NCBI GenBank assembly: GCA_937872185.1
Contig: CALMQN010000030.1
Span: 1 to 15,453 of the forward strand
Direction: 5' to 3'
From: an uncultured bacterium
Lineage (GTDB): Bacteria; Patescibacteriota; Saccharimonadia; Saccharimonadales; Saccharimonadaceae
Length of the DNA stretch: 15,453 bases
Below the pieces are notes generated by a model. That model was not told where the DNA came from and did no database searches. It saw only the letters and a program-made list of their open reading frames with translations. Made by a program: the position numbers and the translations under genes. Below are positions 1,170 through 14,810 of this stretch, one piece after another (the stretch's first letter is position 1; each line of letters begins with the position of its first letter).

Positions 1170-2693
1170 TTATTCGAACTTCACGTCTGGATAAATGTCA
1201 CGAGTCGTCGAATCGATCTCGGCGCGCAGTTGTGGGAATGGTACGCCTTCGCGTGCAGTTACGCCTTCAAGTGACCAGAAAATACGTTCTGAAAAGCCTA
1301 ATCCGCATGCCGGAGGCATCGCGTATTCAAGCGCTTCAACGTAATCGATGTCCATCATCTGCGCCTCATCGTCACCGCTATCTCGCATGTTTTGTTGTTC
1401 CAAGAATCGATTATATTGATCAATTGGATCGTTCAATTCCGAGAATGCTTTGCACATCTCACTACCGGCAAAAACGAGGTTAAACTGCTCGGTCAGGTCA
1501 GGGTTGGCAACCTGGACCTTTGCAAGCGGCTGCATGAATGTTGGCATATCCACTAGAAATGCTGGGCCTGTAAGTGTTTTTCGATACTTTTTCCATAATT
1601 TATCAAGACTTCGTTGGCGATTATCTTGTTTCTCAACCTCTAGGCCGTTTGTTTTAAGCGCCGCGGCAATATCTTCAATAGAGGAATTGAACACATCGAT
1701 ACCATATTGATCTTTTAATACCCGCACAAAGCTGATCCGCGGGAAATGTTCACCATCCTGACCAAAATCAATCCTACTACCGTCCGATAACGTAAACTGA
1801 CGTGTCCCCCACGTTGCATCAGAGATCGCGCGAATCATATTTTCGGTAAATACCATCCCCTTTTCCCAATCGGCATATGCCCAATACCATTCCATGGCAA
1901 TATGTTCAGGTAAATGCTCGTCACTATAATTTTCATTCCTAAAGCGAGCACCGATGTCATAGACTTTTTCATAACCTGCAACCAAAAGACGCTTTAATGG
2001 TAACTCGTGGCTAATACGCAGGTAAAAGTCTTGATCCAACGCATCCATGTGCGTAACGAAAGGATTCGCGTCAGCACCACCGGCAGTTGTTTCAAGTACC
2101 GGAATATTAATTTCGATGAAATCGTTCGCGTTCAAAAAGTCACGTGTCGCTTGCCAAAACTTACTACGGCGTACAAAACGATCGCGGACGTCTTGGTTGA
2201 CGTTCATATCCACGTATCGGCGGCGCATACGCTCTTCTTTGTTGGTAAAGCCTTCTTGAGCACTTGGCATTGGTCGCAGTGACTTTGTGAGCAGACGGAA
2301 CGTTTTAACAGCGATCGAAATCTCGCCTGTTTTGCTTTTAATAATGTCCCCCGTTGCTTCGACAAAATCACCGGTGTCCAGCAGCGGCAAGTCCGCAATC
2401 GACAGCTGACTAATGCTTGCGTCACGTTCAGCGACCTGGCCTTCGGCCAAAAACAACTGAATCTCACCGCTAAAATCTTTCAGCACGATAAACGCAAGCT
2501 TACCGAACTTGCGGATACCGGTAATACGCCCGGCAACCGTTGCCGTCTGACCTTCCAAGCTCTCAAAGTTCGCGACAATATCGCCCATATTGTGGGTCCG
2601 GTGCGCATCGGCTGGGTATGGATTAATACCTAACTGCTTCAGTTCATTTAGCTTGCGCAGTCGCTCATCCCGAAAATCTTTTAGTGTCGCCAT
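1170..2693 (-). CDS. lysS: Lysyl-tRNA synthetase, class II
   Basis: A 507-residue class II LysRS that charges tRNA-Lys in the cytoplasm. It has an N-terminal OB-fold anticodon-binding domain (about residues 50-135, with GRITGIRKFGKLAF), and the LysRS-typical linker LRPMPS...EERMRRRYVDM (139-163). Motif 2 is ARFRNE (249-254), FSELNDP is at 417-423, and motif 3 contains GLGFSER (464-470). Motif 3 departs from the common GLGIDR form but keeps its Arg, followed by an unusual C-terminal extension. An in-frame ATG exists 23 codons upstream (2762) but is rejected: a consensus promoter lies between the two ATGs, so the upstream one would not be transcribed from it, and family N-termini start at MATLKDFRDERLRKL. 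There is no Shine-Dalgarno sequence before the ATG and the -10 ends 9 nt upstream, so the mRNA is probably leaderless. Confidence 0.95.
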   Translation of the reverse strand: MATLKDFRDERLRKLNELKQLGINPYPADAHRTHNMGDIVANFESLEGQTATVAGRITGIRKFGKLAFIVLKDFSGEIQLFLAEGQVAERDASISQLSIADLPLLDTGDFVEATGDIIKSKTGEISIAVKTFRLLTKSLRPMPSAQEGFTNKEERMRRRYVDMNVNQDVRDRFVRRSKFWQATRDFLNANDFIEINIPVLETTAGGADANPFVTHMDALDQDFYLRISHELPLKRLLVAGYEKVYDIGARFRNENYSDEHLPEHIAMEWYWAYADWEKGMVFTENMIRAISDATWGTRQFTLSDGSRIDFGQDGEHFPRISFVRVLKDQYGIDVFNSSIEDIAAALKTNGLEVEKQDNRQRSLDKLWKKYRKTLTGPAFLVDMPTFMQPLAKVQVANPDLTEQFNLVFAGSEMCKAFSELNDPIDQYNRFLEQQNMRDSGDDEAQMMDIDYVEALEYAMPPACGLGFSERIFWSLEGVTAREGVPFPQLRAEIDSTTRDIYPDVKFE

Positions 2694-2702
2694 CGTAGGT
2701 GT

Positions 2703-2731
2703 ATTATATCTGTTCTTTGGCGATGTGACAA
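2703..2731 (-). promoter_or_regulatory. lysS promoter (near-consensus, leaderless configuration)
   Basis: Minus-strand -35 TTGTCA (2726-2731), exactly 17 bp spacer, -10 TATAAT (2703-2708). Only 9 nt (ACACCTACG) separate the -10 from the ATG at 2693, placing the transcription start within about three bases of the initiation codon. Confidence 0.85.
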
Positions 2732-2732
2732 A

Positions 2733-2748
2733 TAAAGACGTATCTTTA
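2733..2748 (-). terminator. Weak hairpin after greA, possible terminator
   Basis: A perfect 6-bp A/T-rich stem TAAAGA/TCTTTA closed by a UACG tetraloop (UNCG class) is followed on the minus strand by TTTG. It lies 34 bp beyond the greA stop and abuts the lysS -35 box. The stem is short and the U-run poor, so termination would be partial at best. Confidence 0.35.
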
Positions 2749-2781
2749 GGTAGCCAGTGCAAGAATGCGGTTTAAATAAGA

Positions 2782-3237
2782 TTAGCTGATGCTAACAATC
2801 TTGTAAGTCACATTACCCTTAGGTGTCGTGATAGCAGCGCTATCGCCTACTTTTTTGCCAAAGACGGCTTCGCCGATTGGTGATTCGTTGCTGATCTTGC
2901 CTTCCAATGGGTCGGCCTCAACTGGGCCAACAACAGTGTAAGTGACGGTTTTGTTACCCGTTTTTAGTTCAACTTTGCTGCCCAGCGATACTTTTGATTT
3001 GCTACCCGCTTTAATTAGGTCAGCGTTCAACAAAATATCTTCGATCTCAGCGATGCGGCTTTCCAGCAGCCCCTGGTCTTCACGGGCTGCATCGTATTCA
3101 GCGTTCTCAGACAAATCACCAAAATCACGAGCGTTCGCAATTTTCTCGGCAACTTCGCCGCGGCGACCTTTTAGCTTCTTCAGCTCTGACTCAAGTTCTT
3201 TTTTGCCCTGTGCGGTGATTTGGTATAATTTTTTCAT
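2782..3237 (-). CDS. greA: Transcription elongation factor GreA
   Basis: A 151-residue protein of normal GreA length. The N-terminal coiled coil (about residues 10-75) carries the tip motif ARDFGDLSENAEYDAA, placing the acidic pair at D41 and E44, the same numbers as in E. coli GreA. These residues hold the metal in the RNA polymerase secondary channel and stimulate cleavage of backtracked transcripts. The C-terminal FKBP-like domain (about 80-151) includes SPIGEAVFGKKVGD. The gene follows proS after a 93-bp gap that holds a small hairpin; lysS follows 88 bp downstream from its own promoter. SD support for this start is weak (an AGAGAG about 13 nt upstream), but the family N-terminus MKKLYQIT.. 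fits. Confidence 0.97.
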   Translation of the reverse strand: MKKLYQITAQGKKELESELKKLKGRRGEVAEKIANARDFGDLSENAEYDAAREDQGLLESRIAEIEDILLNADLIKAGSKSKVSLGSKVELKTGNKTVTYTVVGPVEADPLEGKISNESPIGEAVFGKKVGDSAAITTPKGNVTYKIVSIS

Positions 3238-3270
3238 AATAATTGGTTATCTCTCTTTTTATCATATGCA

Positions 3271-3289
3271 GTGTCCTTATCAAGGACAC
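3271..3289 (-). other. Inverted repeat in the proS-greA gap
   Basis: GTGTCCTT-ATC-AAGGACAC is a perfect 8-bp inverted repeat with a 3-nt loop, 34 nt upstream of the greA start. On neither strand is it followed by a U-run, so it is not a convincing intrinsic terminator. It may be a structured greA leader, an RNA processing site or a protein-binding dyad. A TATATA stretch (3296-3303) just upstream could be a -10 box, but no good -35 goes with it. Confidence 0.45.
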
Positions 3290-3330
3290 CTACGCTATAT
3301 ATAGTGTAAGCACCGCCCGAGCATTTACAT

Positions 3331-4575
3331 TCAGCTCAGTTTAGCAAGCAGTTCGTCGCGTGTCAACATGTTCGTCTCGCCAGATGTACGCTCGGTATAT
3401 TCGTACTGATTTTCAGCCAGATGACGATCACTCACAGTGACCCGATGTGGAATTCCCATCAGTTCACTATCAGCAAATTTTTGACCTGGACGAACATCAC
3501 GATCATCGTATAAAACGGTGATGCCTTTGGCCGTCAACTCGTCGTACAATGCGTCGGCATGTGCAATGGCATCTTCGTTACCAATGCTCACTAAATATAC
3601 TTTGGCAGGTGCCACATTCTCAGGCCAGACCAGCCCCTTGTCATCTGCAAAATGTTCAGCGATAAGCCCCACCAGGCGACTTGGGCCAATCCCGTAACTA
3701 CCCATGATAACCTTTTTGCTGGATCCATCCTCATCTGTAAACGTCAGGTCAAGCGCATCAGAAAACTTCGTCCCAAGCGTGAAAATATTCCCTACTTCGA
3801 CACCACTTTTTTGAACCAGATCATCCTTGGCAATCCCCAAATCAGCCAGTACCTCATCGTTATAAACCTCTTCGTTAATCGCGATTCGCTTACCTTCGTG
3901 AACATATATCGTGTCTTCACCGACAGGGCTAATTGTCTGGAACTCATGGCTATATTTAGCAAAGCTACCGCCACTCGCAAACGTTTTATATGTCGATTCG
4001 CCAAGCCCCAATCGATCGAAAATATTCGCATACGCAACGCTAATTTTCTCGTAAAATGCGTCATGCTCCTGTTGATTGCGGCTAAAACTATACAGATCTT
4101 TCATCCAGAATTCGCGTCCGCGCATCAACCCTGATTTTGATCGCAGTTCATTGCGAAATTTAATCTGAAACTGATAAGGGTACACTGGCAAATCTTTATA
4201 GCTATTAATAAAACTTTTCATAAGTTTTGTCAGCGGTTCCTCATGCGTTGGTGCAAGCCCAAGATCACTGCCGTTGGCTAGTTTTGTCTTAAACCACACG
4301 TCCATCACGCTATCATCCCAGCGCCCTGATGCTTCCCACGCGTCTTTTTGCTGCAAGGCAGTTAGGCTAATTTCGTTACCGCCAATCGCGTCCATTTCCT
4401 CGCGAATAATCTGAACAACATTGTTCAGCACAGCCCTACCCAGCGGCAAATAATCATATACGCCAGCCATTTCTTTATGGATAAAGCCAGCCTGAATCAG
4501 CAATTGGGCATTTTTTGACACTTCGTCGCCCGGGACAGATTTGCTGGTTTTGGTAAACAGTTGAGTAACGCGCAT
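3331..4575 (-). CDS. proS: Prolyl-tRNA synthetase, short form lacking the INS editing domain
   Basis: A 414-residue class II ProRS, well below the roughly 570 residues of E. coli-type enzymes. Motif 1 lies around residues 42-60 (DYLPLG), followed by TxE-like APTHEE (108-113). Motif 2 is FRNE (140-143) continuing to MRGREFWMKDLYSF, motif 3 is MGSYGIGPSR (291-300), and the anticodon-binding domain is about 322-414. Only about 70 residues separate SGGSFAKYSHEF from motif 3, so the roughly 180-residue INS domain that hydrolyses Ala-tRNA-Pro is absent, as in alphaproteobacterial and mitochondrial-type ProRS. The aminoacylation core looks intact. The start overlaps the upstream stop as TAATG, with AGGAGG just before it, so it is translationally coupled to the CPBP protease gene. 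Confidence 0.96.
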   Translation of the reverse strand: MRVTQLFTKTSKSVPGDEVSKNAQLLIQAGFIHKEMAGVYDYLPLGRAVLNNVVQIIREEMDAIGGNEISLTALQQKDAWEASGRWDDSVMDVWFKTKLANGSDLGLAPTHEEPLTKLMKSFINSYKDLPVYPYQFQIKFRNELRSKSGLMRGREFWMKDLYSFSRNQQEHDAFYEKISVAYANIFDRLGLGESTYKTFASGGSFAKYSHEFQTISPVGEDTIYVHEGKRIAINEEVYNDEVLADLGIAKDDLVQKSGVEVGNIFTLGTKFSDALDLTFTDEDGSSKKVIMGSYGIGPSRLVGLIAEHFADDKGLVWPENVAPAKVYLVSIGNEDAIAHADALYDELTAKGITVLYDDRDVRPGQKFADSELMGIPHRVTVSDRHLAENQYEYTERTSGETNMLTRDELLAKLS

Positions 4576-5342
4576 TATCCTCCTAGTGTATTCAATAACA
4601 GCGGATTAATAAAGAGCAGATAAAACGCAATACCATTTTTCGTCATGTGCAACAGCATCGGCGCCCACAGACTGCCCGTGCTCAGTCGCAGCAAACACAG
4701 CACAATACTGAGCGCAAAGGTATCGAATGCCAGGTTCCAGGCACCATGGACTGCAGCGAATAGCAGGCTGGTTGCAATGACTGCTGCCCATACCGGTACC
4801 GACTTTAGCAGCTTGCCAAACAAGTATCCGCGAAATAGCAGCTCTTCGGCAACCGGTGCAATGATCACCAGCGTGATAAACGCCAAAATATATTCATACC
4901 GCTGGCCTAACTGACTGAACCCGGTGTCCTGTGCCTGCGATGCATCAAACCATGGCAGCAGATTAGTCGCAAGATATATCAGGAATGCCGATAAAATAAG
5001 ATACACGACCAGCCCAACAGGTGTCATCCAAATATCTGTCCACGACGGCATTGCGCGAAGTGCCAAATCTTGCGTCGTCACTTTTCGGCGTTTCACCAAC
5101 CATGGGACACCGATGACAATCCCCAGCGTCAGCACATACATCAGCGCAGCCAGCGTCGTCGTCAGCACGCTTTCGTTAATGGCATATAGCGGGGCGTGCA
5201 CGGCCTTCAAAATGGCAACCAGGCCACCAATCAACGTCTGAGCCAGCAACAAACTGGCAAACACCCATATCGGCAAGACAATCAACATCCACCAGCGTCG
5301 CTGTAGATGCTTTTTAGGAGTATCAGAAGAGTTTTGTGACAT
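4575..5342 (-). CDS. CPBP (CAAX/ABI-type) intramembrane metalloprotease family protein
   Basis: A 255-residue polytopic membrane protein with the three CPBP glutamic-protease motifs: EELLFR (residues 166-171), FAAVH (195-199) and LHMTKN (231-236). These supply the conserved Glu pair, Arg and His residues inside the membrane. There are about six to eight hydrophobic segments, with a Lys/Arg-rich N-terminus (about 1-17) in the cytoplasm. Bacterial members cleave membrane peptides or act in bacteriocin immunity and peptide maturation; no substrate can be named here. The start overlaps the 3' end of rseP by 20 nt and the stop overlaps the proS start by one nt, so it belongs to the frr-to-proS operon. 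This position between rseP and proS is not part of the usual bacterial order. Confidence 0.9.
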   Translation of the reverse strand: MSQNSSDTPKKHLQRRWWMLIVLPIWVFASLLLAQTLIGGLVAILKAVHAPLYAINESVLTTTLAALMYVLTLGIVIGVPWLVKRRKVTTQDLALRAMPSWTDIWMTPVGLVVYLILSAFLIYLATNLLPWFDASQAQDTGFSQLGQRYEYILAFITLVIIAPVAEELLFRGYLFGKLLKSVPVWAAVIATSLLFAAVHGAWNLAFDTFALSIVLCLLRLSTGSLWAPMLLHMTKNGIAFYLLFINPLLLNTLGG

Positions 5343-6462
5343 CCGCGATTGTTACCAGGACCACAAGGCCCATTAAAATGATGAACCCGGTCGCCTGAAT
5401 CTTTTCTTCGAGGTCCTTGGTTAGTTGCTTTTTAATGACACGAAACAGCGCTGTGACAAACCAACGTCCACCATCAAGTGCCGGAATTGGCAGCACGTTC
5501 ATGACCGCAAGTGTCAGTGATATAATCGCCGTCAGAAAAATCAACTGCGTCGGGCCAGCGCGTTCAGCAGCCGGGAAGATTGTTCCCAAAATGCCAATCG
5601 GACCTGCGACACTATCACCCACACTCTTCAGATTTTGGCCCGCCTGGTCACGACTGGCTTGGTCTGGGCTCAGCTGCAAAAACAGCCCGCTCGCCAGATT
5701 ACCAACCAGATTTCCCAAACCTTGTAATGTCGCCCAGGTAAACTGCCCCGTCGTCACCACACCAACAATCGGTGCAGACCAAGTGGAACGCATCAATTCA
5801 CGTTGGCCAAGCCCTGCGCCAAAAATGCTGCCGGTTGCGTCGTCGCGCAGCTGCACCTTGGCGGTTGCTTCCGCACCACCGCGATTATAAATAACTTCTA
5901 CTTGCTGACCCTTGTTCACTTTTGTCAGGTCAATTAATGCCTGAGCACTATCGACAGGCTGTCCCGCAAAACGGACAATCTTATCACCCGTCTTTAGACC
6001 TGCTTTTTCGGCGGGAAAATCAGGTGTCAGCGCCGTCAGCTCAACCGATTGTGTCGCCACCACTGTGTCAGAAGCAATTGAAAATTGATTTGGCAAAATC
6101 TTCGGCAGCCCGGTCAGCGCCAAAATTGTGAGTAGCACGACAGCAACCACCCAGTTAATAGCGACGCCGGCTAGCAAAATCTTGGTTTTTTGCCAGAACG
6201 TTGCCGCCCCATAATCACCCTTTTTATCCGCCGCGTCGTGTTCGCCCTGCAATTTAACAAACCCACCCAGTGGCAGCCAGTTCAGGCTAAACACCACTCC
6301 GTTTTTTAGCTTGCGCTTCCAGGCGCGCGGCGGAAAACCAATCCCAAACTCCTCAACGACAACACCGTTACGCTTAGCGACAATTGCGTGCCCCAGTTCG
6401 TGCACTACAACCAAAAACACCAAGATAATAAGACCCAGTGCAATTCCAAAAATTAATTCCAT
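5323..6462 (-). CDS. rseP: Site-2 intramembrane zinc metalloprotease RseP/RasP (M50)
   Basis: A 379-residue M50 protease. The first transmembrane helix carries the zinc motif HELGH (21-25). A PDZ domain spans about 135-210 (FPAEKAGLKTGDKIVRFAGQPV), and the third ligand motif NVLPIPALDGG lies at 322-332 in a C-terminal helix, with a further helix to residue 372. Family members cut anti-sigma factors and clear signal-peptide remnants in the membrane. The single PDZ domain matches Gram-positive RasP rather than the double-PDZ E. coli form. The ATG directly follows the uppS stop (TAGATG), with a GGGGG Shine-Dalgarno inside the uppS end. With lepB in the same window it may clear leader peptides released by signal peptidase (inference). 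Confidence 0.95.
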   Translation of the reverse strand: MELIFGIALGLIILVFLVVVHELGHAIVAKRNGVVVEEFGIGFPPRAWKRKLKNGVVFSLNWLPLGGFVKLQGEHDAADKKGDYGAATFWQKTKILLAGVAINWVVAVVLLTILALTGLPKILPNQFSIASDTVVATQSVELTALTPDFPAEKAGLKTGDKIVRFAGQPVDSAQALIDLTKVNKGQQVEVIYNRGGAEATAKVQLRDDATGSIFGAGLGQRELMRSTWSAPIVGVVTTGQFTWATLQGLGNLVGNLASGLFLQLSPDQASRDQAGQNLKSVGDSVAGPIGILGTIFPAAERAGPTQLIFLTAIISLTLAVMNVLPIPALDGGRWFVTALFRVIKKQLTKDLEEKIQATGFIILMGLVVLVTIADVTKLF

Positions 6463-7155
6463 CTATCCCCCAAACCGTCGATGACGTTTGCTATATTCAT
6501 TTATTATATCGGTCACGTCATCTTTTGTCATGTCAGGCCAAAACTTTTCGATAAAGATTAGCTCGCTATATGCCGCCCGCCACAACATAAAGTTGCTGAT
6601 CCGCTTTTCGCCGCCCGAACGAACCATCAGATCAAGCGGTGGTATTTCAGGTGCATACAAATTGTTCTCAATAAGTTCTGGCGTGATATCTTCTGCGGTA
6701 GCTCCAGAGCGAATAATTTTCTTAACTGCATCCGCAATCTCAAGCTGGCCGCCATAATTGAAACACATCAGCAATGTCCCCGCCGTATTATGTTTTGTTG
6801 ATTCCTGGGCCTCGTTAATGGCTTTCAATATTGATTTGTCGATGCCTTCAGGAGAGCCAAGAACAATCAAGCGAATGTTCTTATCATGGAAGATGTTTAT
6901 ATCTGTTTTGACGACCCTAAATACAAGCGCCATAAGCTTTGAGACTTCCTCTTTTGATCGTTTGTGATTTTCTGTAGAGAAAGCGTAGACAGACATAAAC
7001 TCGACCCCAGCATCCAACACCTCAAAGGCAATATCTTTAAGCGTATTATAACCAGCCAAGTGTCCCTCGTACCCAGGCAGACCATGCTTCTTTGCCCAGC
7101 GCCGATTACCGTCAATAATAAACCCAATGTGGCGAGGAACGACGATGTCAGCCAT
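6463..7155 (-). CDS. uppS: Undecaprenyl diphosphate synthase (cis-prenyltransferase)
   Basis: A 230-residue cis-prenyltransferase that extends farnesyl diphosphate with isopentenyl units to the C55 lipid carrier for cell-wall polymers. Motif PRHIGFIIDGNRRWA holds catalytic Asp15; FSTENHKRSKEEV starts at about residue 59; FNYGGQLEI is at 132-140; and VRSGGEKRISNFMLW (178-192) carries the Arg/Ser residues that bind the IPP diphosphate. Two variations from E. coli UppS are visible: DGNGRW is DGNRRW, and NYGGR is NYGGQ. The start overlaps the frr stop as TAATG. The neighbours cdsA and dxr, common in this operon elsewhere, are absent; whether the cell makes IPP itself cannot be told from here. Confidence 0.95.
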   Translation of the reverse strand: MADIVVPRHIGFIIDGNRRWAKKHGLPGYEGHLAGYNTLKDIAFEVLDAGVEFMSVYAFSTENHKRSKEEVSKLMALVFRVVKTDINIFHDKNIRLIVLGSPEGIDKSILKAINEAQESTKHNTAGTLLMCFNYGGQLEIADAVKKIIRSGATAEDITPELIENNLYAPEIPPLDLMVRSGGEKRISNFMLWRAAYSELIFIEKFWPDMTKDDVTDIINEYSKRHRRFGG

Positions 7156-7709
7156 TAGATTGTCAGGATATCTTTCTCTTTGGCGCGGAAGATCTCGTCA
7201 ATTTTAAGGTTATATTTTGACATATCATCGTCAATTCCCTTTTCGATGCGCTTCACATCATCTTCGGATAGTTCTTTGGCTTCTTTGCGACGCTTGGCCT
7301 CTTTTAGCGCATCCTGGCGGATATTACGCAGGGCAATGCGCGTTTCTTCAACTTTTTCACTCGCTTGTTTTACCAGCAGCTTACGACGGTCTTCGGTCAG
7401 TGCAGGCACTGGCACGCGGATGATGCGCCCATCGTCACTCGGGTTAAAGCCCATCGATTGATCGGCACGAATGGCGGCATTGATTGCTTGGATGTTACCT
7501 GGATCAAACGGCGTCACCTGCAGCATCTGCGCCTCGGGCGCGGTGATATTGGCAGCTTGGTTCAGTGGCAACAATGTACCATACACTTCAACCTTGATGC
7601 CCTCTAACTGCCCGGGGTGTGCCCGACCGGTGCGCACCTTCTTCAATTCATCTTCAAAATGCATGACGGCCAGTTCAAATTTTTCTTCATAGGGTTTTGT
7701 ATCAAACAT
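7155..7709 (-). CDS. frr: Ribosome recycling factor
   Basis: A 184-residue RRF, which with EF-G splits post-termination ribosomes. Hallmarks are VRTGRAHPG (residues 25-33), VPVPALTEDRRKLLVK in the middle, RNIRQDALKEAKRRKE, and the C-terminal helix ending FRAKEKDILTI. An ATG eight codons upstream (7733) is rejected: the extended -10 box TGC-TATAAT lies between the two, and family members begin close to MFDTKPYEEKF. The ATG at 7709 has no Shine-Dalgarno and is 9 nt after the -10, so translation is probably leaderless. It is the first gene of the frr-uppS-rseP-CPBP-proS operon. pyrH, which usually separates tsf and frr, is missing. Confidence 0.95.
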   Translation of the reverse strand: MFDTKPYEEKFELAVMHFEDELKKVRTGRAHPGQLEGIKVEVYGTLLPLNQAANITAPEAQMLQVTPFDPGNIQAINAAIRADQSMGFNPSDDGRIIRVPVPALTEDRRKLLVKQASEKVEETRIALRNIRQDALKEAKRRKEAKELSEDDVKRIEKGIDDDMSKYNLKIDEIFRAKEKDILTI

Positions 7710-7718
7710 TGTATGTCC

Positions 7719-7727
7719 ATTATAGCA
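7719..7727 (-). promoter_or_regulatory. Extended -10 promoter of the frr operon
   Basis: Minus-strand TGC-TATAAT is a perfect extended -10 box with no good -35, which is usual for this class. Nine nt separate it from the frr ATG. It lies just past the tsf terminator, so the operon gets its own promoter in a 75-bp gap. Confidence 0.75.
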
Positions 7728-7739
7728 AAACACACATCA

Positions 7740-7765
7740 AATAAGCGCCCAGATGGGCGCTTATT
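7740..7765 (-). terminator. Intrinsic terminator of the rpsB-tsf operon
   Basis: A perfect 11-bp stem AATAAGCGCCC/GGGCGCTTATT with a 4-nt loop, followed on the minus strand by the T-rich run TTGATGTGTGTTTTG. It begins 19 bp after the tsf stop. It separates rpsB-tsf from the frr operon. Confidence 0.88.
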
Positions 7766-7784
7766 CTTGTTATCGTCGGTATTT

Positions 7785-8381: not shown

Positions 8382-8383
8382 TG

Positions 8384-9100
8384 TTATTTCTCCTCTTTGT
8401 CAGCTGTCTTTGCGCTGCCCAGGCCTTCTTTAACTGCACTAGCAACATAGTCAAGTAGCAATTGAATGCCCTTGATCGCGTCGTCGTTACCAGGAATCAC
8501 ATAATCAACGAGCGATGGGTCAGCGTTGGTATCAACCACAGCAACAACAGGAATACCGAGTGTCTTTGCTTCTTTGATCGCATTTGCGTCGCCGATAACG
8601 TCGATGACAAATAACGCACCGGGTTTACCGTTCAGGTCCTTAATGCCACTGTACTTGTCATTCAGTTCATCGATTTCCTCTTGAAAACGTTGCACTTCAA
8701 GCTTGTTGTAGCGCTTTTCAAGATCGCCCGATTCCATGCGCTTTTCAAGATCTTTTAGTTTCTTGATTTGCTGACCAACAGTCGCAACGTTCGTCAGGAT
8801 TCCGCCCAACCATCGTTCAGTCACGTATGGCTGTTTGATTGATTCTGCAGTGCTTTTAACGATTTCTTTGGTGTGTTTTTTGGTACCAACAAACAATACT
8901 TGTTTGCCGTTTGCCGCGACGCGGGTCAAAAATGGCAAGGCCACTTCTAAACCTTCGACGGTCTTAACCAAGTCAATAATGTGACTGTCTTGGCGTTTGC
9001 TATGAATGTATGGCGCCATTTTAGGGTGCCAACGGCTGGTCTTATGACCAAAGTGTACGCCTGCTTCAAGCAAGGCTTTAATATCGACAGATACTGCCAT
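8384..9100 (-). CDS. rpsB: 30S ribosomal protein S2
   Basis: A 238-residue S2 with the family blocks LLEAGVHFGHKTSRWHPKM (residues 11-29), RWLGGILTN, and near the end VVAVVDTNADPSLVDYVIPGNDDAIKGI. The charged insertion QQIKKLKDLEKRMESGDLEKRYNKLE forms the S2 coiled-coil hairpin. The start has Shine-Dalgarno AAAAGGAG (9112-9119) eleven nt upstream, at the end of a structured leader. First gene of the rpsB-tsf operon, divergent from rpmE. Confidence 0.98.
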   Translation of the reverse strand: MAVSVDIKALLEAGVHFGHKTSRWHPKMAPYIHSKRQDSHIIDLVKTVEGLEVALPFLTRVAANGKQVLFVGTKKHTKEIVKSTAESIKQPYVTERWLGGILTNVATVGQQIKKLKDLEKRMESGDLEKRYNKLEVQRFQEEIDELNDKYSGIKDLNGKPGALFVIDVIGDANAIKEAKTLGIPVVAVVDTNADPSLVDYVIPGNDDAIKGIQLLLDYVASAVKEGLGSAKTADKEEK

Positions 9101-9196
9101 AATGTTGTGAACTCCTTTTCGCTTACGCGAATCCTCACCTTCGACCCTGAAATTCAGGAGTTATGTCGAAAGTTGTATCATTTAAAATGTTGTTAC
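9101..9196 (-). promoter_or_regulatory. Structured 5' leader of rpsB, candidate S2 autoregulatory site
   Basis: Between the predicted start site and rpsB the minus strand can form two structures. One is a stem TTCGAC/GTCGAA (9140-9170) enclosing a second stem CCTGA/TCAGG with a 3-nt loop and a 6-nt one-sided bulge. The other is TTCGC-GTAA-GCGAA (9118-9131), with a GNRA tetraloop, whose last bases run into the Shine-Dalgarno. rpsB-tsf operons in several bacteria are repressed by S2 binding to the rpsB leader; that this leader does so is inference from position and structure only. Confidence 0.5.
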
Positions 9197-9202
9197 CTAG
9201 CC

Positions 9203-9231
9203 ATATTAACAGATTGAAGGCGTTCTGTCTA
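9203..9231 (-). promoter_or_regulatory. Candidate rpsB-tsf promoter
   Basis: Minus-strand -35 TAGACA (9226-9231), 17-bp spacer, -10 TAATAT (9203-9208) with a TG one base upstream. The implied start near 9196 gives a leader of about 95 nt. The -10 is imperfect, so a promoter further upstream remains possible. Confidence 0.5.
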
Positions 9232-9323
9232 GGCCCGGACGGCAGGCGCCGACACATGGCAACACGGCCCCGTGCCAGAACTGGCCGGTCTATCAATACA
9301 TGAATAGACACCGCATAGTACCC
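9232..9323. other. GC-rich patch with clustered inverted repeats between the rpsB and rpmE promoters
   Basis: No convincing coding frame. Four small inverted repeats follow one another: CGGC-AGGC-GCCG (9240-9251), CACGG-CC-CCGTG (9263-9274), GCCAG-AA-CTGGC (9274-9285, sharing one base with the previous), and GTCTAT...ATAGAC (9288-9309, 10-nt loop). Base composition is clearly more GC-rich than the flanking A/T-rich promoter DNA. It could be a structured RNA, an extended leader or a protein-binding region; it matches no RNA family I recognise. Confidence 0.4.
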
Positions 9324-9352
9324 TTTACAAAACACCTCAAAACAGATACAAT
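9324..9352 (+). promoter_or_regulatory. rpmE promoter (leaderless configuration)
   Basis: -35 TTTACA (9324-9329), exactly 17 bp spacer, -10 TACAAT (9347-9352). Nine nt separate the -10 from the rpmE ATG at 9362, and no Shine-Dalgarno is present. Confidence 0.75.
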
Positions 9353-9361
9353 AATTCAGAT

Positions 9362-9682
9362 ATGAAAACCAACTTACACCCAACCGATTACCGTCCCGTC
9401 GTATTTAGCGATGACGTGGCTGGGTTTGCGTTTTTGACACAGTCTACTGCGCAGACCAACGACACTATTAAATGGGAAGACGGACAAGAGTACCCACTTG
9501 TGAAAGTCCATATTTCCAGTGCTTCTCACCCGTTCTTTACTGGCGAAGAGAAGATCATCGACACCGAAGGCCGTGTCGACCGCTACAAAGCGAAGTTTGC
9601 CGCTGCTGAAGCACGCAAAGAACAGCTTGCTAGCAAAGCCAAAAAAGCTGCTGCTGTCAAAGCCAAAAAGTCAGCAGAATAA
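9362..9682 (+). CDS. rpmE: 50S ribosomal protein L31, type B
   Basis: A 106-residue L31 of the type B (RpmE2/YtiA) form: KTNLHPTDYRPVVFSDD, STAQTNDTIKWEDGQEYPLVKVHISSASHPFFTG and DTEGRVDRYKAKF are characteristic. There is no cysteine at all, so it is the zinc-independent version. The usual protein ends near residue 80; here an Ala/Lys-rich tail of about 26 residues is added (AKKAAAVKAKK). Tails of this kind bind rRNA in other ribosomal proteins; the role here is not known. It is alone between its own promoter and a terminator. Confidence 0.96.
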   Translation: MKTNLHPTDYRPVVFSDDVAGFAFLTQSTAQTNDTIKWEDGQEYPLVKVHISSASHPFFTGEEKIIDTEGRVDRYKAKFAAAEARKEQLASKAKKAAAVKAKKSAE

Positions 9683-9692
9683 CGACTGCTTT

Positions 9693-9723
9693 AAAAGAGG
9701 CTACCGATGTGTAGTCTCTTTTT
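9693..9723 (+). terminator. Intrinsic terminator of rpmE
   Basis: A 12-bp stem AAAAGAGGCTAC/GTAGTCTCTTTT (one G-U pair, 6-nt loop) running into a T-tract (9719-9723), 10 bp after the rpmE stop. Confidence 0.85.
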
Positions 9724-9726
9724 GTA

Positions 9727-9740
9727 TGTCATAATAGGAG
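9727..9740 (+). promoter_or_regulatory. Candidate prfA extended -10 promoter with adjacent Shine-Dalgarno
   Basis: TGT-CATAAT (9727-9735) resembles an extended -10 box, 9 nt before the prfA ATG, the same distance as at lysS, frr and rpmE. The 9 nt contain AGGAG (9736-9740), a Shine-Dalgarno only 4 nt from the ATG. If transcription starts here the SD would be mostly lost; if it reads through from rpmE the SD would work, though closely spaced. Confidence 0.45.
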
Positions 9741-9744
9741 TAAC

Positions 9745-10815
9745 ATGCCAAAGATTAGCCTGAACATCGACGAACTGCAAACCGAGAAGAATGATCTGGG
9801 TGAGTTTTTGGCACGTCCTGACGCCTATGCCGATGACGACTATACCGCCAAAAACAAACGGTTCACCGAGCTTGACGCAATCTTAGAAAAGGCGAATCTC
9901 CGCAAAAAACTAGAAGCCCAGCTGGTTGAGGCTAAAGATCTTATCGGCGGGGGCGATGATCTGGCCGAAGTTGCAAAATTAGAGGTATCTGATATCGAGT
10001 CGCAGCTTGAAGCGCTTGAAAACGAATTGTTTTTGATGCTTGCCCCTAAAGACCCCAACGACGAAAAAAACGTCATCATCGAAATTCGCGCCGGTGCTGG
10101 CGGTGATGAGGCTAGCCTGTTTGCCGCCGAATTATACCGCATGTATCTGCGCTACTGCGAAACACATTCACTGCGCACCGAAATGATCAACGAATCTGCC
10201 AACGATACCGGTGGATATAAAGAAGTTATTTTTAGCGTCAAGGGCGACTCGCCCTACGCCCAGTTAAAATTTGAATCTGGTGTCCACCGCGTTCAGCGTG
10301 TCCCAGCCACCGAATCACAAGGCCGCATCCACACCAGCACAGTCACGGTTGCTGTCCTTCCGGAAGCCGAAGAAACAGACCTTGAAATTAATCCCGGCGA
10401 CCTAAGAATCGACATTTACCGGTCAGGTGGTCATGGTGGTCAGTCAGTTAATACCACCGACAGCGCCGTGCGCATCACCCACATTCCGTCTGGTCTGGTG
10501 GTCATCAACCAGGATGAAAAGTCACAACTAAAAAACAAAGAAAAAGCCATGTCGGTCCTTCGCAGTCGACTGCTGCAGATCAAAAACGATGCCGAAAATG
10601 CCAAACTTGACGCCGAACGACGCGGGTTGATTGGGTCAGGCGATCGCAGCGAAAAAATTCGCACCTATAACTTCCCCCAAGATCGCATTACCGATCACCG
10701 CATTGGCTATAGTCGCAGCAACATCCCCGTTGCCATGAACGGCGCCATCGAAGATATCATAGAACACTTGCAGGCATATGAACGAGAACTTGCAGCCGCC
10801 AATGCTGGCAATTAA
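9745..10815 (+). CDS. prfA: Peptide chain release factor 1
   Basis: A 356-residue RF1 that ends translation at UAA and UAG. An N-terminal coiled-coil domain (to about residue 105) is followed by the core start [16 protein letters not shown] (112-127). The stop-codon reading tripeptide PAT (187-189) sits in [21 protein letters not shown] marks RF1 as opposed to SPF in RF2. The catalytic GGQ (231-233) lies in [17 protein letters not shown], where the Gln is the target of PrmC methylation. The gene overlaps prmC, the gene for that methylase, as in many bacteria. Confidence 0.98.
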
Positions 10816-11632
10816 GGACTGGCTGCTTGACGCCTCGCAGCGTCTTAGCAGTACCGGGATTACCAGCGCCCACCTGGACGCCGAGATTATTTTGGCACAC
10901 ACACTTCGTAAAAACCGTACCTACCTACACGGTCACGTTGATGATATATTGACCGCATATGACCAAGAGGTCGCCGACGCCAGGCTAGCGCTCCGCTTGG
11001 ACCGCGTGCCGATTGCCTATATCATTGGGCATAAAGAATTCTATGGTCGACGCTTTACCGTCACTACCGCGACCCTGATCCCTCGTCCCGAATCTGAAGA
11101 TATCGTTGATGTTATCAAAAAACTGGTGCCGAAAAACCTGTCACTCCTTGATGACGGCTACCGTTTGGTTGATGTCGGCACTGGCACGGGCTGCTTGGGC
11201 ATCACTGCTAAATTGGAGCTGCCTGATATCGATGTGACGTTACTCGATATCAGCCCTTACGCATTAAAAGTTGCGGCATCAAATGCATCGCGCCTGAACG
11301 CCGATGTACGCAGCATAAAAAGCGATCTTTTGGCACGGTATCCGTTTAAAGCTGATATGGTCGTCGCCAACCTCCCATACGTCGATCCATCATGGGATCG
11401 TTCACCCGAAACTAATCACGAACCAGACCTGGCACTTTTTGCCGACGACGGGGGTAAAGCCTTAATGATCAAATTGATTAGCCAGGCACCCCAATCGCTA
11501 AGGGCAAATGGGTATCTGCTGCTAGAAGCCGATCCGACTCAGCACGCCGCGCTCATCGATTTTGCACATGGTCACGGATTTCATCTTAAGAAAAAGCTGG
11601 GCTATTGCCTCGCGCTCCAAAAAACAACCTAG
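10802..11632 (+). CDS. prmC: Release factor glutamine methyltransferase PrmC
   Basis: A SAM-dependent methylase that modifies the Gln of the release-factor GGQ motif; the partner RF1 is encoded just upstream. From this start it has 276 residues. Visible are the N-terminal helical domain (WLLDASQRL...DAEIIL), the linker [16 protein letters not shown]...[11 protein letters not shown] motif [11 protein letters not shown], and the substrate-Gln site as NLPY instead of the usual [16 protein letters not shown] follows. Two starts are possible: ATG 10778 (38-nt overlap with prfA) and ATG 10802 (14-nt overlap). Neither has a clear SD; 10802 puts the conserved Trp near position 7 as in E. coli PrmC and is preferred. 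The stop shares CTAG with the convergent gene. Confidence 0.93.
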
Positions 11633-12438
11633 ATACCGATAGTAACGTCGGCGCCCAGCAGATTTAAAACAATAGGCAGCACGATAATGATACTCAGCGT
11701 GAACAAAATCGGTAGCAACACATCATTAGTACGAATTTTTTGGTGGTGATAATACGAATCGTATGCCTTGTGCAAAATAAATCCAATACACAGCACTGTT
11801 AGCGCTACCCGTGGGAAAATGACGCTCTCAATCCCTAGCGGACGATACGCAACCGTCCAGTGATACGCCAACCAACCCAGTTCCGCGAGAGTTAACCCCC
11901 ATACCAGGCTAAGAAATAATATATGCGTCTCGTCATACGTCGCCAATACGTGGCGGGCGGTTGCATACCCAATCAACCACATAATAATAACTGTGACCGA
12001 TGCTGGCAGCGCATATGAGAGCATAAACAAAGCGGCAACACCGGCAAACAACGCCACTCCTGCCTGTGCGACGATGTAAGCGCGTTTGGCGCGTGGTTTC
12101 AAAAACAGCAGCCAGCCAATATATAACAGGGTTAAACCAATCAGTATCGCCAGCTTCTGCGCAGGCTCAGCCGCACTGATATATGTGGTATATAAAAACA
12201 CAACCAGGCTGATGCTGACGATAAAATCGACTAGGTTTGCCTGAATGTTTACAAACCAATAACGCGGTCGCACTGCCAAAACACGCCACTTACTCAGCAG
12301 CACCAACCCAACCGCGGGCCATGGTGATTCAGTTGCACGGATGACCAACACAACGGCAATCGCTAGCGCGATGTTTAGTCCCATGTAGATGACCTCACTC
12401 AAAAACGAGCGTCGTCGAACAATTTTCAAAAATTCCAT
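11629..12438 (-). CDS. Polytopic membrane protein of unknown function
   Basis: Not recognised. A 269-residue, very hydrophobic protein with about eight or nine predicted membrane segments. The first follows a short basic N-terminus (KIVRRR); others lie near residues 68-87, 95-112, 121-162 (two), 171-193, 204-223 and 240-262. Loops carry Arg/Lys-rich stretches (KPRAKRAY; KAYDSYYHHQKIRTND). No catalytic or transporter signature is visible. An ATG 18 codons upstream (12492) is rejected: it lies inside the LCP coding end and upstream of an extended -10 box. From 12438 the leader is 9 nt or less with no Shine-Dalgarno. It follows the LCP gene by 34 bp on the same strand and might take part in envelope polymer work, but this is only neighbourhood inference. 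Confidence 0.8.
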   Translation of the reverse strand: MEFLKIVRRRSFLSEVIYMGLNIALAIAVVLVIRATESPWPAVGLVLLSKWRVLAVRPRYWFVNIQANLVDFIVSISLVVFLYTTYISAAEPAQKLAILIGLTLLYIGWLLFLKPRAKRAYIVAQAGVALFAGVAALFMLSYALPASVTVIIMWLIGYATARHVLATYDETHILFLSLVWGLTLAELGWLAYHWTVAYRPLGIESVIFPRVALTVLCIGFILHKAYDSYYHHQKIRTNDVLLPILFTLSIIIVLPIVLNLLGADVTIGI

Positions 12439-12447
12439 TGTCTTTAC

Positions 12448-12456
12448 AGTATACCA
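12448..12456 (-). promoter_or_regulatory. Extended -10 promoter of the membrane protein gene
   Basis: Minus-strand TGG-TATACT, 9 nt before the ATG at 12438, inside the 34-bp gap after the LCP gene. No good -35 is seen. The spacing repeats the arrangement of lysS, frr and rpmE. Confidence 0.6.
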
Positions 12457-12472
12457 TGCCGTGCGGGGGTGG

Positions 12473-14098
12473 CTACTCCTGGGCAGCGCCAATAATAATC
12501 ACAAAATCGGCCTCTGCGCTGCCAAGAACCGGTGGTGCAGTCGTTTTAACCGTCACACCAAAACGCTCAGCAAGTTTTGCAGCTGTTACTGTGTTGCCCT
12601 CACCTATCTTATATATCTCGACACTGGCATATGTTCCCGCAGGTGCGTTATCAACCAGCCCAACAGTAAAGCCGGCATCTGTTAACTTATCCGCCTCAGT
12701 CTGACCAACACCAGCGACACCACTTCCGTTAAGCACAACAATGTTCGCACTTTCACGCGTCACAGGATCGCTCGTAAGATTCTTTTGAACATAGGCTTGA
12801 ATTGCAGTAAAGTCGTCAATGCCGGCAACTGGCCGGACGATACTCTGACCGTTATAACTGCCCGTCGTCACCAGCGGCGAATCTTCGTCAACCAGTGTCA
12901 GCGATATGATATCGGCCGAATTAATATCACTGCCCAGCGACATCAACGTGCGAATTTCTTTGGTTTCAACATTGGTACGCAGGTTGTTGCCCAGCGCATC
13001 AATAAGGCCGGTCACCGCACCAAGATTCGATAACGTTCCGGCACTCAGTGCCTTTTCGCGCAGTGCCTGAATAATCTTTTGTTGGTTTTTCTCGCGGTCA
13101 AAGTTACCACCAGGCAGCCCATATCCACCAGCAGCATTACGTGCGCGGGCCAATGCTAGGGCATGCTCGCCGTCCAAATGTGCAACTTCACCCTTATCGT
13201 ATTTCACGTAGTAACATTTAAAGTTACATTTCCAGTCAAAGTTCCGATCCAAGATACCATTAGGATCAGGCGTTTCAATGGTGACATCAACACCGCCAAC
13301 CGCATCGACTGCCTCAATAACGGCAGTGAAGTTAAGGTGTATATAGTACTGCGTATCAACGCCAAGGATATTCTTTACCTGTGCCTGCAAGGCCGCAGCA
13401 CCAGCTGCTTCATCTGCTCCGTCGTCTGATGCGCACGAATATGCTGCGTTCAATTTGCCTTGGTTGCCGACCCAACAGGTGTCTTGATACGTCACCCACA
13501 AATCACGAGGCAAGCTTAGCATATAGGCATTTTTATTAACCTGGTCAACACTCAACAACATGATCGAATCAGTCAGGTTAGCGCCACCATGCGTTCCGCC
13601 GGCATCATCTTCGGCAGTCCCAAAGATCACGAAGTTGCTGCGGCCGTTGGCGTCTGTTTTAAGTGGCTGGTTTTGTACAATATCGAAAATACTACCCTTT
13701 AAGATGTTCTGACTCGCGCCCAAAAACTTAACGCCAAGATATGCGCCAACGCCAAGCGCCGCGATAAGCAGCAAAATAAAGAACCACTTAACAATCCGCT
13801 TTGCTTTACTGCGTGGTTTGGCCTGTTTCTCTAAGCGGCGACGCTGTCGTTTCGATAGTTTAGGTGCGTCATCACCGTTATCAATTTCGCGTAGCGAATC
13901 ATCAATATCAGAACGGCCAATGCCCATCCCAGGGCGTGGACGACCAACCGTTTCGCGAACGGCATCATCTTCGGTGTGAAGCGAGCGGTCAATCGGCTCT
14001 ACCTCAAGTCCCGATCGCTTCATATCATGAAGCTCACCCAATTGGCTACCAGTACGGCGAGGCACAAAGCCGTCGATTGAAGGTCGTTTATCTTTCAT
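12473..14098 (-). CDS. LytR-CpsA-Psr (LCP) family protein with C-terminal LytR_C domain
   Basis: A 541-residue membrane-anchored protein. A long charged cytoplasmic N-terminus (1-103, ending in KRQRRRLEKQAK) is followed by one transmembrane helix (about 104-125), an extracellular LCP domain (about 153-355) and a LytR_C domain (about 451-541, ANIVVLNGSGVAGVGQ...). LCP hallmarks are LTDSIML (175-181), SLPRDLW (195-201), HLDGEHALALARARN (307-321) and NFDREKNQQKIIQAL (332-346), with the Asp/Arg residues that hold the prenyl-pyrophosphate. Such enzymes transfer glycopolymers from the undecaprenyl carrier to peptidoglycan or protein, linking it to uppS here. Cys208, Cys222, Cys291 and Cys295 might form disulfides outside the cell. 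An ATG at 14143 is rejected because it lies upstream of the promoter. Confidence 0.94.
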   Translation of the reverse strand: MKDKRPSIDGFVPRRTGSQLGELHDMKRSGLEVEPIDRSLHTEDDAVRETVGRPRPGMGIGRSDIDDSLREIDNGDDAPKLSKRQRRRLEKQAKPRSKAKRIVKWFFILLLIAALGVGAYLGVKFLGASQNILKGSIFDIVQNQPLKTDANGRSNFVIFGTAEDDAGGTHGGANLTDSIMLLSVDQVNKNAYMLSLPRDLWVTYQDTCWVGNQGKLNAAYSCASDDGADEAAGAAALQAQVKNILGVDTQYYIHLNFTAVIEAVDAVGGVDVTIETPDPNGILDRNFDWKCNFKCYYVKYDKGEVAHLDGEHALALARARNAAGGYGLPGGNFDREKNQQKIIQALREKALSAGTLSNLGAVTGLIDALGNNLRTNVETKEIRTLMSLGSDINSADIISLTLVDEDSPLVTTGSYNGQSIVRPVAGIDDFTAIQAYVQKNLTSDPVTRESANIVVLNGSGVAGVGQTEADKLTDAGFTVGLVDNAPAGTYASVEIYKIGEGNTVTAAKLAERFGVTVKTTAPPVLGSAEADFVIIIGAAQE

Positions 14099-14111
14099 AA
14101 ATACTCGTACT

Positions 14112-14140
14112 ATTATACCTAATTTTGACACTATTTTGAA
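14112..14140 (-). promoter_or_regulatory. Promoter of the LCP gene
   Basis: Minus-strand -35 TTCAAA (14135-14140), 17-bp spacer, -10 TATAAT (14112-14117). The -10 ends 13 nt before the ATG, so the leader would be about 6 nt with no Shine-Dalgarno. Confidence 0.7.
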
Positions 14141-14187
14141 CACTAAAAATCATAAGCTCGTTACTATCCCCCTGTCCTTAAACCGTG

Positions 14188-14193
14188 TATAGT
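14188..14193 (+). promoter_or_regulatory. -10 element of lepB (leaderless configuration)
   Basis: TATAGT ends 8 nt before the ATG at 14202, divergent from the LCP promoter in the same 103-bp gap. No clear -35. It also decides the lepB start, since the upstream GTG at 14196 would lie 2 nt after the -10. Confidence 0.55.
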
Positions 14194-14201
14194 AAGTGTA
14201 C

Positions 14202-14810
14202 ATGGAAGCCTCATTTCTGCAGCGCCACCCTTTTGTTAAAGATGCACTCAACATTGCCATCTTTATTTTTTGTGTACTGATTGGCACACTGCTGATTAAT
14301 ACGTTCATTTTTCGCAGTTTTAGCGTGATCGGCCCCAGCATGGAATCAACCATGTATACCAATGACCGCCTAATCGTTAACCGCCTGCCTGTCACCTGGG
14401 CACAGCTACAAAACAAATCATATATCCCTGAACGTGGGCAAATTATCGTTTTCAAAAACCCCCACTACAGTACGGGCATGTCAGACGAATACATCGTCAA
14501 ACGCGTGATTGCTTTTCCTGGCGAACGGGTTACAATCCAGGACGGCCGCTACGTCGTCTACAATGATGAATTCCCTGATGGTTTTAACCCCGATGATGCC
14601 AATCACGGCGAACCAGGCGTCCCAACCAGTGGTACAGCCGATGAAATCGTTCCGGTCGGCGAGCTATTCGTTAGCGGCGACCACCGCCAGGGTAACTATT
14701 CACTCGATTCACGTAATGGTAGCAGCGGCCTGGGGACTATCCCCTTCTACGACGTTGTCGGCCCCGTCAGCATGCGCATCTTCCCATTCGATAAAGTCCG
14801 CGGCTTCTAA
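14202..14810 (+). CDS. lepB: Signal peptidase I
   Basis: A 202-residue type I signal peptidase. One N-terminal membrane helix (about 14-37) is followed by the catalytic Ser46 in VIGPSMEST, general base Lys100 in EYIVKRVIAFPGE, and the conserved block SGDHRQGNYSLDSRNG (158-173). The usual SMxPT reads SMEST, a Pro-to-Ser change two residues from the helix that carries the nucleophile. It cuts signal peptides from exported proteins on the outer face of the membrane. An in-frame GTG two codons upstream (14196) is rejected because it lies only 2 nt from the -10 box. No Shine-Dalgarno is present. Divergent from the LCP gene, convergent with the NUDIX gene. Confidence 0.96.
   Translation: MEASFLQRHPFVKDALNIAIFIFCVLIGTLLINTFIFRSFSVIGPSMESTMYTNDRLIVNRLPVTWAQLQNKSYIPERGQIIVFKNPHYSTGMSDEYIVKRVIAFPGERVTIQDGRYVVYNDEFPDGFNPDDANHGEPGVPTSGTADEIVPVGELFVSGDHRQGNYSLDSRNGSSGLGTIPFYDVVGPVSMRIFPFDKVRGF

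Follow-up and report, generated by a model that had tools for sequence, protein, structure and literature searches.

Leaderless transcription units are well known in bacteria, as a minority mode of gene start. In the sections drawn on here, a survey of 953 bacterial genomes (RefSeq 2010) reads a TA-like signal lying about 10 bp before the translation start as an indication that a gene is leaderless; its main text contains neither "TM7" nor "candidate" (Zheng et al., 2011; PMC3160421). The same paper cites Sulfolobus, where single and operon-proximal genes are leaderless and distal genes carry Shine-Dalgarno (SD) sites. For the Deinococcota, a TANNNT element a few bp before the open reading frame (ORF), with weak dependence on other promoter sequence, has been demonstrated experimentally; in the portion of that report used here, reannotation of start codons follows, other genes have a ribosome-binding-site (RBS) motif, and the bacteria-wide survey names only the Deinococcota, the words "Patescibacteria" and "Saccharibacteria" being missing from the main text (Zhong et al., 2025; PMC12340547). 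The present analysis concerns a 15,453-nt stretch of DNA (the window) from contig 30 of a Saccharibacteria metagenome-assembled genome (MAG; 653 kb in 148 contigs, 85.75% complete), in which -10 hexamers stand directly before the ATG of several genes. Very probably, these are sigma-70-type promoters from which transcription starts at the start codon itself or 1-4 nt upstream, giving leaderless mRNAs or mRNAs with an ultrashort leader. The lineage is a new case of a known mode; a search of open-access literature only, so that an earlier report is possible, found no report of leaderless genes in Saccharibacteria or in the candidate phyla radiation (CPR).

The TA-led bacterial genes are among the closest known parallels. 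A TA-like -10 about 10 bp upstream is kept in 112/127 orthologue cases, an SD is missing from five of six window genes and is present at only 4/52 leaderless-like starts in the sample of the same genome, and the arrangement belongs mainly to first genes (42/105 versus 8/65 internal genes in the window's own genome and 59/148 versus 10/86 in G009, of the same genus; not significant in G028, of another genus of the same family). A possible difference from the genomes of that survey (PMC3160421) is that many of the promoters here are extended -10 ones. With the Deinococcota system, as far as its description was drawn on, the window shares TANNNT before the ORF, the reannotation of starts and the use of an SD or RBS by other genes, here from sequence alone. 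The phylum is a different one, the spacing in the window's genus spreads over 6-10 nt, and the TGN that is common there before the hexamer may be a further difference. Archaeal promoters have a TATA box at about -26. The split along the operon found in the window's genus is the same as that quoted for Sulfolobus, whose promoters are archaeal; those described here have a bacterial -10.

Hexamers set against start codons

Counts were made on 206.7 readable kb of the 653-kb genome (191 kb without the window), on 260 kb of G009 and on G028. A close -10 was defined strictly as TANNNT with at most one mismatch to TATAAT, ending 5-10 nt before an ATG, and in-frame ATGs near the 5' ends of ORFs were set against the out-of-frame ATGs that these stretches contain. 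ORFs came from a custom picker (at least 90 codons, greedy by length). An SD was scored when four letters matched between -18 and -4, a rule that overlooks SDs nearer the ATG: it scored 3/10 long-leader relatives of frr, versus 9/10 by eye (GAGG or GGAG). Gene names (lysS, frr, rpmE, prfA, lepB and the rest) are those of an earlier sequence-only reading. The high-ranking relatives found with the window's PrfA include Candidatus Saccharibacteria MAGs (for example UBA5170, 86% identity); the relative ranked first is a MAG with 93%.

On the minus strand, lysS (1170-2693) has the hexamer TATAAT at 2703-2708, 9 nt before its ATG (2693-2691), and a -35-like TTGTCA at 2726-2731 with a 17-bp spacer; this promoter-proximal start is backed by 13 aligned relative loci. 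The frr gene (7155-7709, minus strand, from the promoter-proximal ATG) has TATAAT at 7719-7724, 9 nt before the ATG at 7709, and rpmE (9362-9682, plus strand) has TACAAT at 9347-9352, also 9 nt from its ATG, with a -35 TTTACA at 9324-9329 and again a 17-bp spacer. Upstream of a membrane-protein gene (11629-12438, minus strand, from the promoter-proximal ATG), TATACT preceded by TGG lies at 12448-12453, 9 nt before the ATG at 12438. For lepB (14202-14810, plus strand, likewise from the promoter-proximal ATG), TATAGT at 14188-14193 ends 8 nt before the ATG, and for the LCP gene on the minus strand the distance from TATAAT (14112-14117) to the ATG at 14098 is 13 nt. A weak case is prfA (9745-10815, plus strand), where CATAAT preceded by TGT (9730-9735) ends 9 nt before the ATG, falls outside TANNNT and is followed by an SD read from the sequence, AGGAG at 9736-9740, 4 nt from the ATG. 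The spacings, the -35-like boxes of lysS and rpmE at 17 bp and the missing SD in five of six genes had all been put forward by the sequence-only reading and were reproduced when re-read and recomputed; the one gene of the six with an SD is prfA. That reading's choice of prfA as an example is a poor one: the gene retains an SD and its relatives are mixed.

Fifteen window genes were checked, the three at the window edges being left out. Five of the 15 have a strict -10 at 8-9 nt, against an out-of-frame background of 2/576 (binomial P ∼1.5e-9, or 2.8e-7 at a background rate of 1%), values that are inflated since the genes had been picked beforehand. A fair test comes from the sampled DNA outside the window, where a close -10 was found at 43/305 in-frame and 5/239 out-of-frame ATGs (p = 1.8e-7). 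With the window included the counts are 48/330 and 5/261. G009 gave 70/419 versus 11/393, and the loci L154-L168 of relatives, most of which bear the label Saccharibacteria, 55/318 versus 8/302. Pattern counts over whole genomes, which are independent of gene calls, agree: 28 genomes of the genus together contain TATAATN{6,9}ATG 3100 times, versus 1495 times for the backwards pattern and 1533 times at N{16,19}, and the close pattern exceeds both controls in 28/28 genomes. In the window's whole genome it occurs 60 times, the backwards pattern 11, the N{16,19} pattern 14 and the pattern with GTA instead of ATG 15 times. Promoters set against start codons are a true and general feature of this Saccharibacteria genus.

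The spacing is less uniform than had been proposed. A genome-wide enrichment of -10 hexamers close to the ATG is present, as predicted, but in the sampled DNA its peak lies at 6 nt and not at 9 nt. In the own-genome sample, window included, 13, 11, 8, 10, 6 and 3 matches end at 6, 7, 8, 9, 10 and 11 nt, respectively, and in G009 the corresponding counts are 26, 16, 9, 10, 9 and 6. A constant distance of 9 nt is no general rule: the sampled matches are spread over 6-10 nt, and the value of 9 nt belongs to these window genes.

The surroundings of the hexamers are those of promoters. The extended -10 element TGN, which was not used in the selection, precedes 53/106 matches; by distance, it precedes 58/115 in-frame hexamers at 6-11 nt and 32/136 at 15-44 nt, and among out-of-frame ones 0/13 at 6-10 nt and 4/8 at 11 nt. 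A -35 matching at least 5/6 at 16-18 bp accompanies a minority of the matches, 12/106 versus 1.6 in shuffles. The commonest promoter is the extended -10 (TGN-TATAAT) with no recognizable -35, and rpmE retains its -35. Enrichment is clear for ATG (106/664 in-frame versus 16/576 out-of-frame) and not clear for GTG (10/315 versus 7/520, p = 0.06) or TTG (11/409 versus 22/1035, p = 0.32).

Conservation among orthologues and the predicted leader

The 15 window proteins were aligned to 32 relative loci from 31 genomes, and the region 5' of each aligned start was inspected. Alignments starting past residue 15, with less than 60 nt upstream or without a start within 12 codons dropped out. L154, L155 and L159 were excluded as duplicate genomes, L069 and L167 belong to one genome and were both counted, and the counts are non-independent, as the relatives share ancestry. 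The 112 cases with a close -10, here at 5-11 nt, come from lysS (13/13), rpmE (29/30), the membrane-protein gene (28/31), lepB (29/30) and frr (13/23). By the same measure prfA reaches 8/32 under the strict rule and LCP 1/25. The other eight window genes together have a close -10 in 5/170 cases (greA 0/17, proS 4/16, cpbp 0/15, rseP 0/13, uppS 1/21, tsf 0/28, rpsB 0/28, prmC 0/32).

Conservation extends to the architecture of single promoters. In lysS, the 8-10 nt spacing and TGN are kept in 13/13 relatives' loci; its -35 is not conserved, a match of at least 5/6 being found in 0/13. The rpmE spacing is 8-10 nt in 29/30 relatives, and a -35 with at least 5/6 identity to TTGACA stands at 16-18 bp in 27/29 close-spaced relatives. 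The membrane-protein gene has a -10 within 13 nt in 31/31 relatives, at 11 nt in 15/31, and TGN in 30/31. With the rule relaxed to 13 nt, prfA has a close -10 in 17/32 relatives, nine of these 17 with an SD; in 10/32 the -10 lies at 14-33 nt and in 5/32 none was found. LCP has a -10 within 13 nt in 23/25 relatives; in 22/25 the first match ends exactly 13 nt from the ATG, and the seventh base after the hexamer is A in 23/23 close-spaced relatives. The divergent lepB and LCP promoters share the region 14099-14201, in which the sequence from the LCP -10 to its ATG (about GTATGAGTATTT) varies little although the proteins are only 45-59% identical; this may reflect a leader fixed at 7 nt or a shared operator.

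Two forms of the frr promoter occur inside the window's genus (7710-7740 and orthologues L053-L071 and L156-L168). In the close form the -10 lies at 6-9 nt, and in the remaining 10/23 relatives it lies at 17-27 nt, with GAGG or GGAG just before the ATG in 9/10. Close relatives may differ, as in L054 (8 nt) and L055 (23 nt). In close relatives the gene thus looks as if it switches from one type of leader to the other, ultrashort or SD-led, and its orthologues are a natural comparison of the two forms of one gene.

The orthologues also bear on where the genes begin. Longest-ORF starts had been moved downstream for lysS, frr, the membrane-protein gene and LCP, and the relatives' upstream frames favor these placements: no in-frame ATG, GTG or TTG occurs upstream before a stop in 11/13, 17/23, 29/31 and 21/23 relatives, respectively. 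The four start codons are supported.

If a sigma-70-type -10 abuts the ATG in this way, transcription would begin at the start codon or 1-4 nt upstream, the resulting leader would be too short for an SD site, and the AUG would have to be recognized for translation at or near the 5' end of the mRNA. The usual +1 is the seventh base after the -10 hexamer. At a spacing of 6 nt this base is the A of the ATG, preceded by C or T in 31/39 cases. At 9 nt it lies three bases before the ATG and is A in 14/20 and a purine in 17/20 (20 including window genes). In the window it is A at lysS, frr, prfA, the membrane-protein gene and lepB and G at rpmE. The rule predicts 0-nt leaders at 6 nt and leaders of ∼3 nt at 9 nt; because base 7 at 9 nt is in most cases an A at -3, leaders of 2-3 nt are likelier there than none. 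Of the earlier description of these genes as leaderless units, the promoter against the ATG stands, and "ultrashort leader" is the more exact term at 9 nt (A at -3, 14/20).

Two proposed initiation modes and the translation machinery

The window had been read as using leaderless initiation for promoter-proximal genes and SD sites inside operons. This division is backed by the sample and by conservation as a tendency only, first genes being mixed. With the first ATG of each ORF as the start, a close -10 in the own-genome sample was found at 12/39 divergent genes, 9/29 genes behind a same-strand gap of at least 60 nt, 6/12 behind a gap of 26-59 nt and 4/47 internal genes, and an SD at 11/39, 8/29, 3/12 and 26/47. 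G009 gave 23/80, 16/51, 13/24 and 10/88 for the -10 and 26/80, 16/51, 8/24 and 52/88 for the SD in the same order. Taking the better-fitting ATG of each ORF picks the start by its signal and is somewhat circular, a fault from which the first-ATG count is free; by this measure SD-only starts make up 26/105 first and 39/65 internal genes in the own genome and 45/148 and 50/86 in G009, and the contrast between first and internal genes in the leaderless-like counts given above has p = 1e-4 and p = 3e-6, respectively. About 40% of first genes are leaderless-like and 25%-30% have an SD in these two sampled genomes of the genus, and the commonest signal inside operons is the SD. In G028, 36/64 first and 34/51 internal genes are SD-only. 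An SD and a close -10 tend to be mutually exclusive: an SD was scored at 4/52 leaderless-like versus 67/124 other starts in the own genome, 4/75 versus 97/168 in G009 and 1/34 versus 72/87 in G028.

In the window itself, the SDs reported for proS, tsf, rpsB and the ABC gene are present. The one reported for rseP is merely a run of G (GGGGGATAG), weaker than claimed. The first ATG of the prmC ORF lies inside the end of prfA (10778-10815, a 38-nt overlap), a case for translational coupling. No Rfam family matched the window at gathering score.

The anti-SD sequence ACCTCC is present in 12/12 of the 16S tails read (14/28 genomes of the genus have a 16S match), so SD initiation is available in the genus. 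Loss of the anti-SD (16S without CCUCC) is ruled out as a cause of the pattern by these tails; the window's own incomplete genome gave no 16S match. Loss of bS1 or IF3 was likewise tried as a cause and set aside. The bS1 model has some match in 27/28 genomes, with 0 over the family cut-off and 24/28 long (spanning roughly 270-360 of the model's 516 positions); in the own genome the sole match is short and lies in another ORF. IF3 is found in 23/28 genomes of the genus and was not found in the window's own incomplete genome. A leaderless mRNA is translated from its 5'-AUG by 70S or IF2-dependent initiation, and the clear enrichment for ATG only would be compatible with such 5'-AUG initiation. 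YchF, which promotes translation of leaderless mRNA, is described as broadly conserved in the part of its report used here (PMC12641178). The G009 16S gene at a contig end (L234, G009:C1:419-1939), which supplied one of the 12 tails, ends in CTGGATCACCTCCTTA, versus GGATTACCTCCTTTCT in 11 other members of the genus, and it may be foreign to that assembly.

Alternative explanations and breadth across the CPR

That TATAAT-like hexamers are simply to be expected near ATGs in AT-rich intergenic DNA has next to no probability left. A few out-of-frame ATGs match as well (5/261), but the out-of-frame, shifted-spacing, genus backwards-pattern, E. coli and Bacillota controls and the conservation among orthologues contradict it; chance is already refuted as the main cause, and a few single matches may still be chance. 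Another proposal is that the AT-rich hexamer acts in the RNA, as an unstructured or S1-binding enhancer before the AUG, transcription starting further upstream. An AT-rich bias at about -20 to -10 has indeed been described as not simply reflecting leaderless promoters and as a possible set of S1 sites (Nakagawa and others; PMC5397173, in the part drawn on here), and the long bS1 matches in 24/28 genomes of the genus would fit, though the window's own incomplete genome has none. The promoter features speak against it, namely TGN in 53/106 matches, the 12 -35 elements versus 1.6 in shuffles, the spacing peak at 6-7 nt, the first-gene bias and the rpmE -35 in 27/29 close-spaced relatives, and we consider an RNA-level role improbable.

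The hexamers could also be promoters of short true leaders of 5-8 nt, with the start not set by a 5'-terminal AUG, at least for the widest-spaced genes, LCP and the membrane-protein gene. LCP with its 13 nt in 22/25 relatives and its A at base 7 in 23/23 would have a 7-nt leader, the membrane-protein gene stands at 11 nt in 15/31, and the spacing is broader in the window's genus than in G028, with its 28 in-frame matches at exactly 6 nt. Spacings of 12-13 nt are nevertheless rare in the own-genome sample (1 and 2, versus 48 ATGs at 5-10 nt), and this explanation is possible but rather doubtful. The reading that transcripts begin with the start codon or 1-4 nt upstream has several observations against it. 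The orthologues of frr and prfA often have a longer leader. Base 7 is G in four, C in four, A in three and T in two lysS relatives, and A in 12, T in 11, C in six and G in two relatives of the membrane-protein gene, so that, these relatives being without a purine-rich base 7, the +1 rule is not universal. By the simple rules used, 42/105 first genes of the own genome conform, another 26 have an SD only and the remaining 37 show neither signal, and the contrast between first and internal genes in G028 is not significant (leaderless-like 19/64 versus 11/51, p = 0.39). The ratio to the backwards pattern is weak in the same-family genomes G177 (65 versus 50) and G230 (59 versus 37) and near 1 in the same-order genomes G200 (64 versus 64) and G123 (42 versus 39).

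Backwards-pattern ratios over 286 genomes of the phylum and 13 non-CPR genomes were dropped as a means of classing genomes, the control being biased: among non-CPR genomes, those above 20 matches have ratios between ∼1 and 2.5, and for AT-rich G127 the counts are 49 versus 133 despite a strong in-frame test (17/58 versus 2/63). The in-frame test gave 37/240 versus 9/171 in G028, with TGN before 28/37, and the fusion of promoter and start is stricter there than in the window's genus. Within the same order, G040 gave 11/74 versus 3/56 (p = 0.07), G055 13/57 versus 0/50 and G041 6/70 versus 1/69 (p = 0.06); G123 of the same order (3/46 versus 0/38) and G149 of the same class (5/77 versus 1/73) are not significant singly. 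Eighteen genomes of other CPR classes, sampled at 40 kb each, pool to 110/1123 versus 24/899. Six of the 18 reach p < 0.05 singly, uncorrected (G127, G162, G064, G070, G104 and G102), and 12/18 are not positive singly, with G140, G077 and G118 showing nothing. A uniform CPR-wide rule is rejected, given the strong heterogeneity among these 18 genomes (p = 8.5e-10). On balance it is probable that, in Saccharibacteria and in several, not all, other CPR lineages, start-codon-fused, largely extended -10 promoters are a principal mode of first genes, with a strictness that varies by lineage (leaders of 0 nt in the genus of G028 and 0-4 nt in that of the window), and that close relatives can differ in the leader of a single gene such as frr, ultrashort in one and SD-led in another, with a spacing difference of ∼15 nt.

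CPR bacteria make up a large and mostly uncultured share of bacterial diversity. Should leaderless first genes be common among them, start calls made by a longest-ORF or SD rule would be wrong for some genes, promoters could be read straight from MAGs, and genetic tools for CPR epibionts should try leaders of 0-3 nt. Leaderless transcription is reportedly modelled in the work of Lomsadze (2018). The pattern also bears on the question whether leaderless initiation is ancestral in bacteria. Outside the CPR, no excess of close hexamers was seen in 100 kb of E. coli K-12 (1/161 in-frame versus 2/109 out-of-frame) or in Bacillota (14/836 versus 18/646), and a mixture of Desulfobacterota, Proteobacteria and others gave 5/273 versus 2/198. 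Acidobacteriota loci among L172-L223 show a small excess (10/398 versus 0/258, p = 0.0065).

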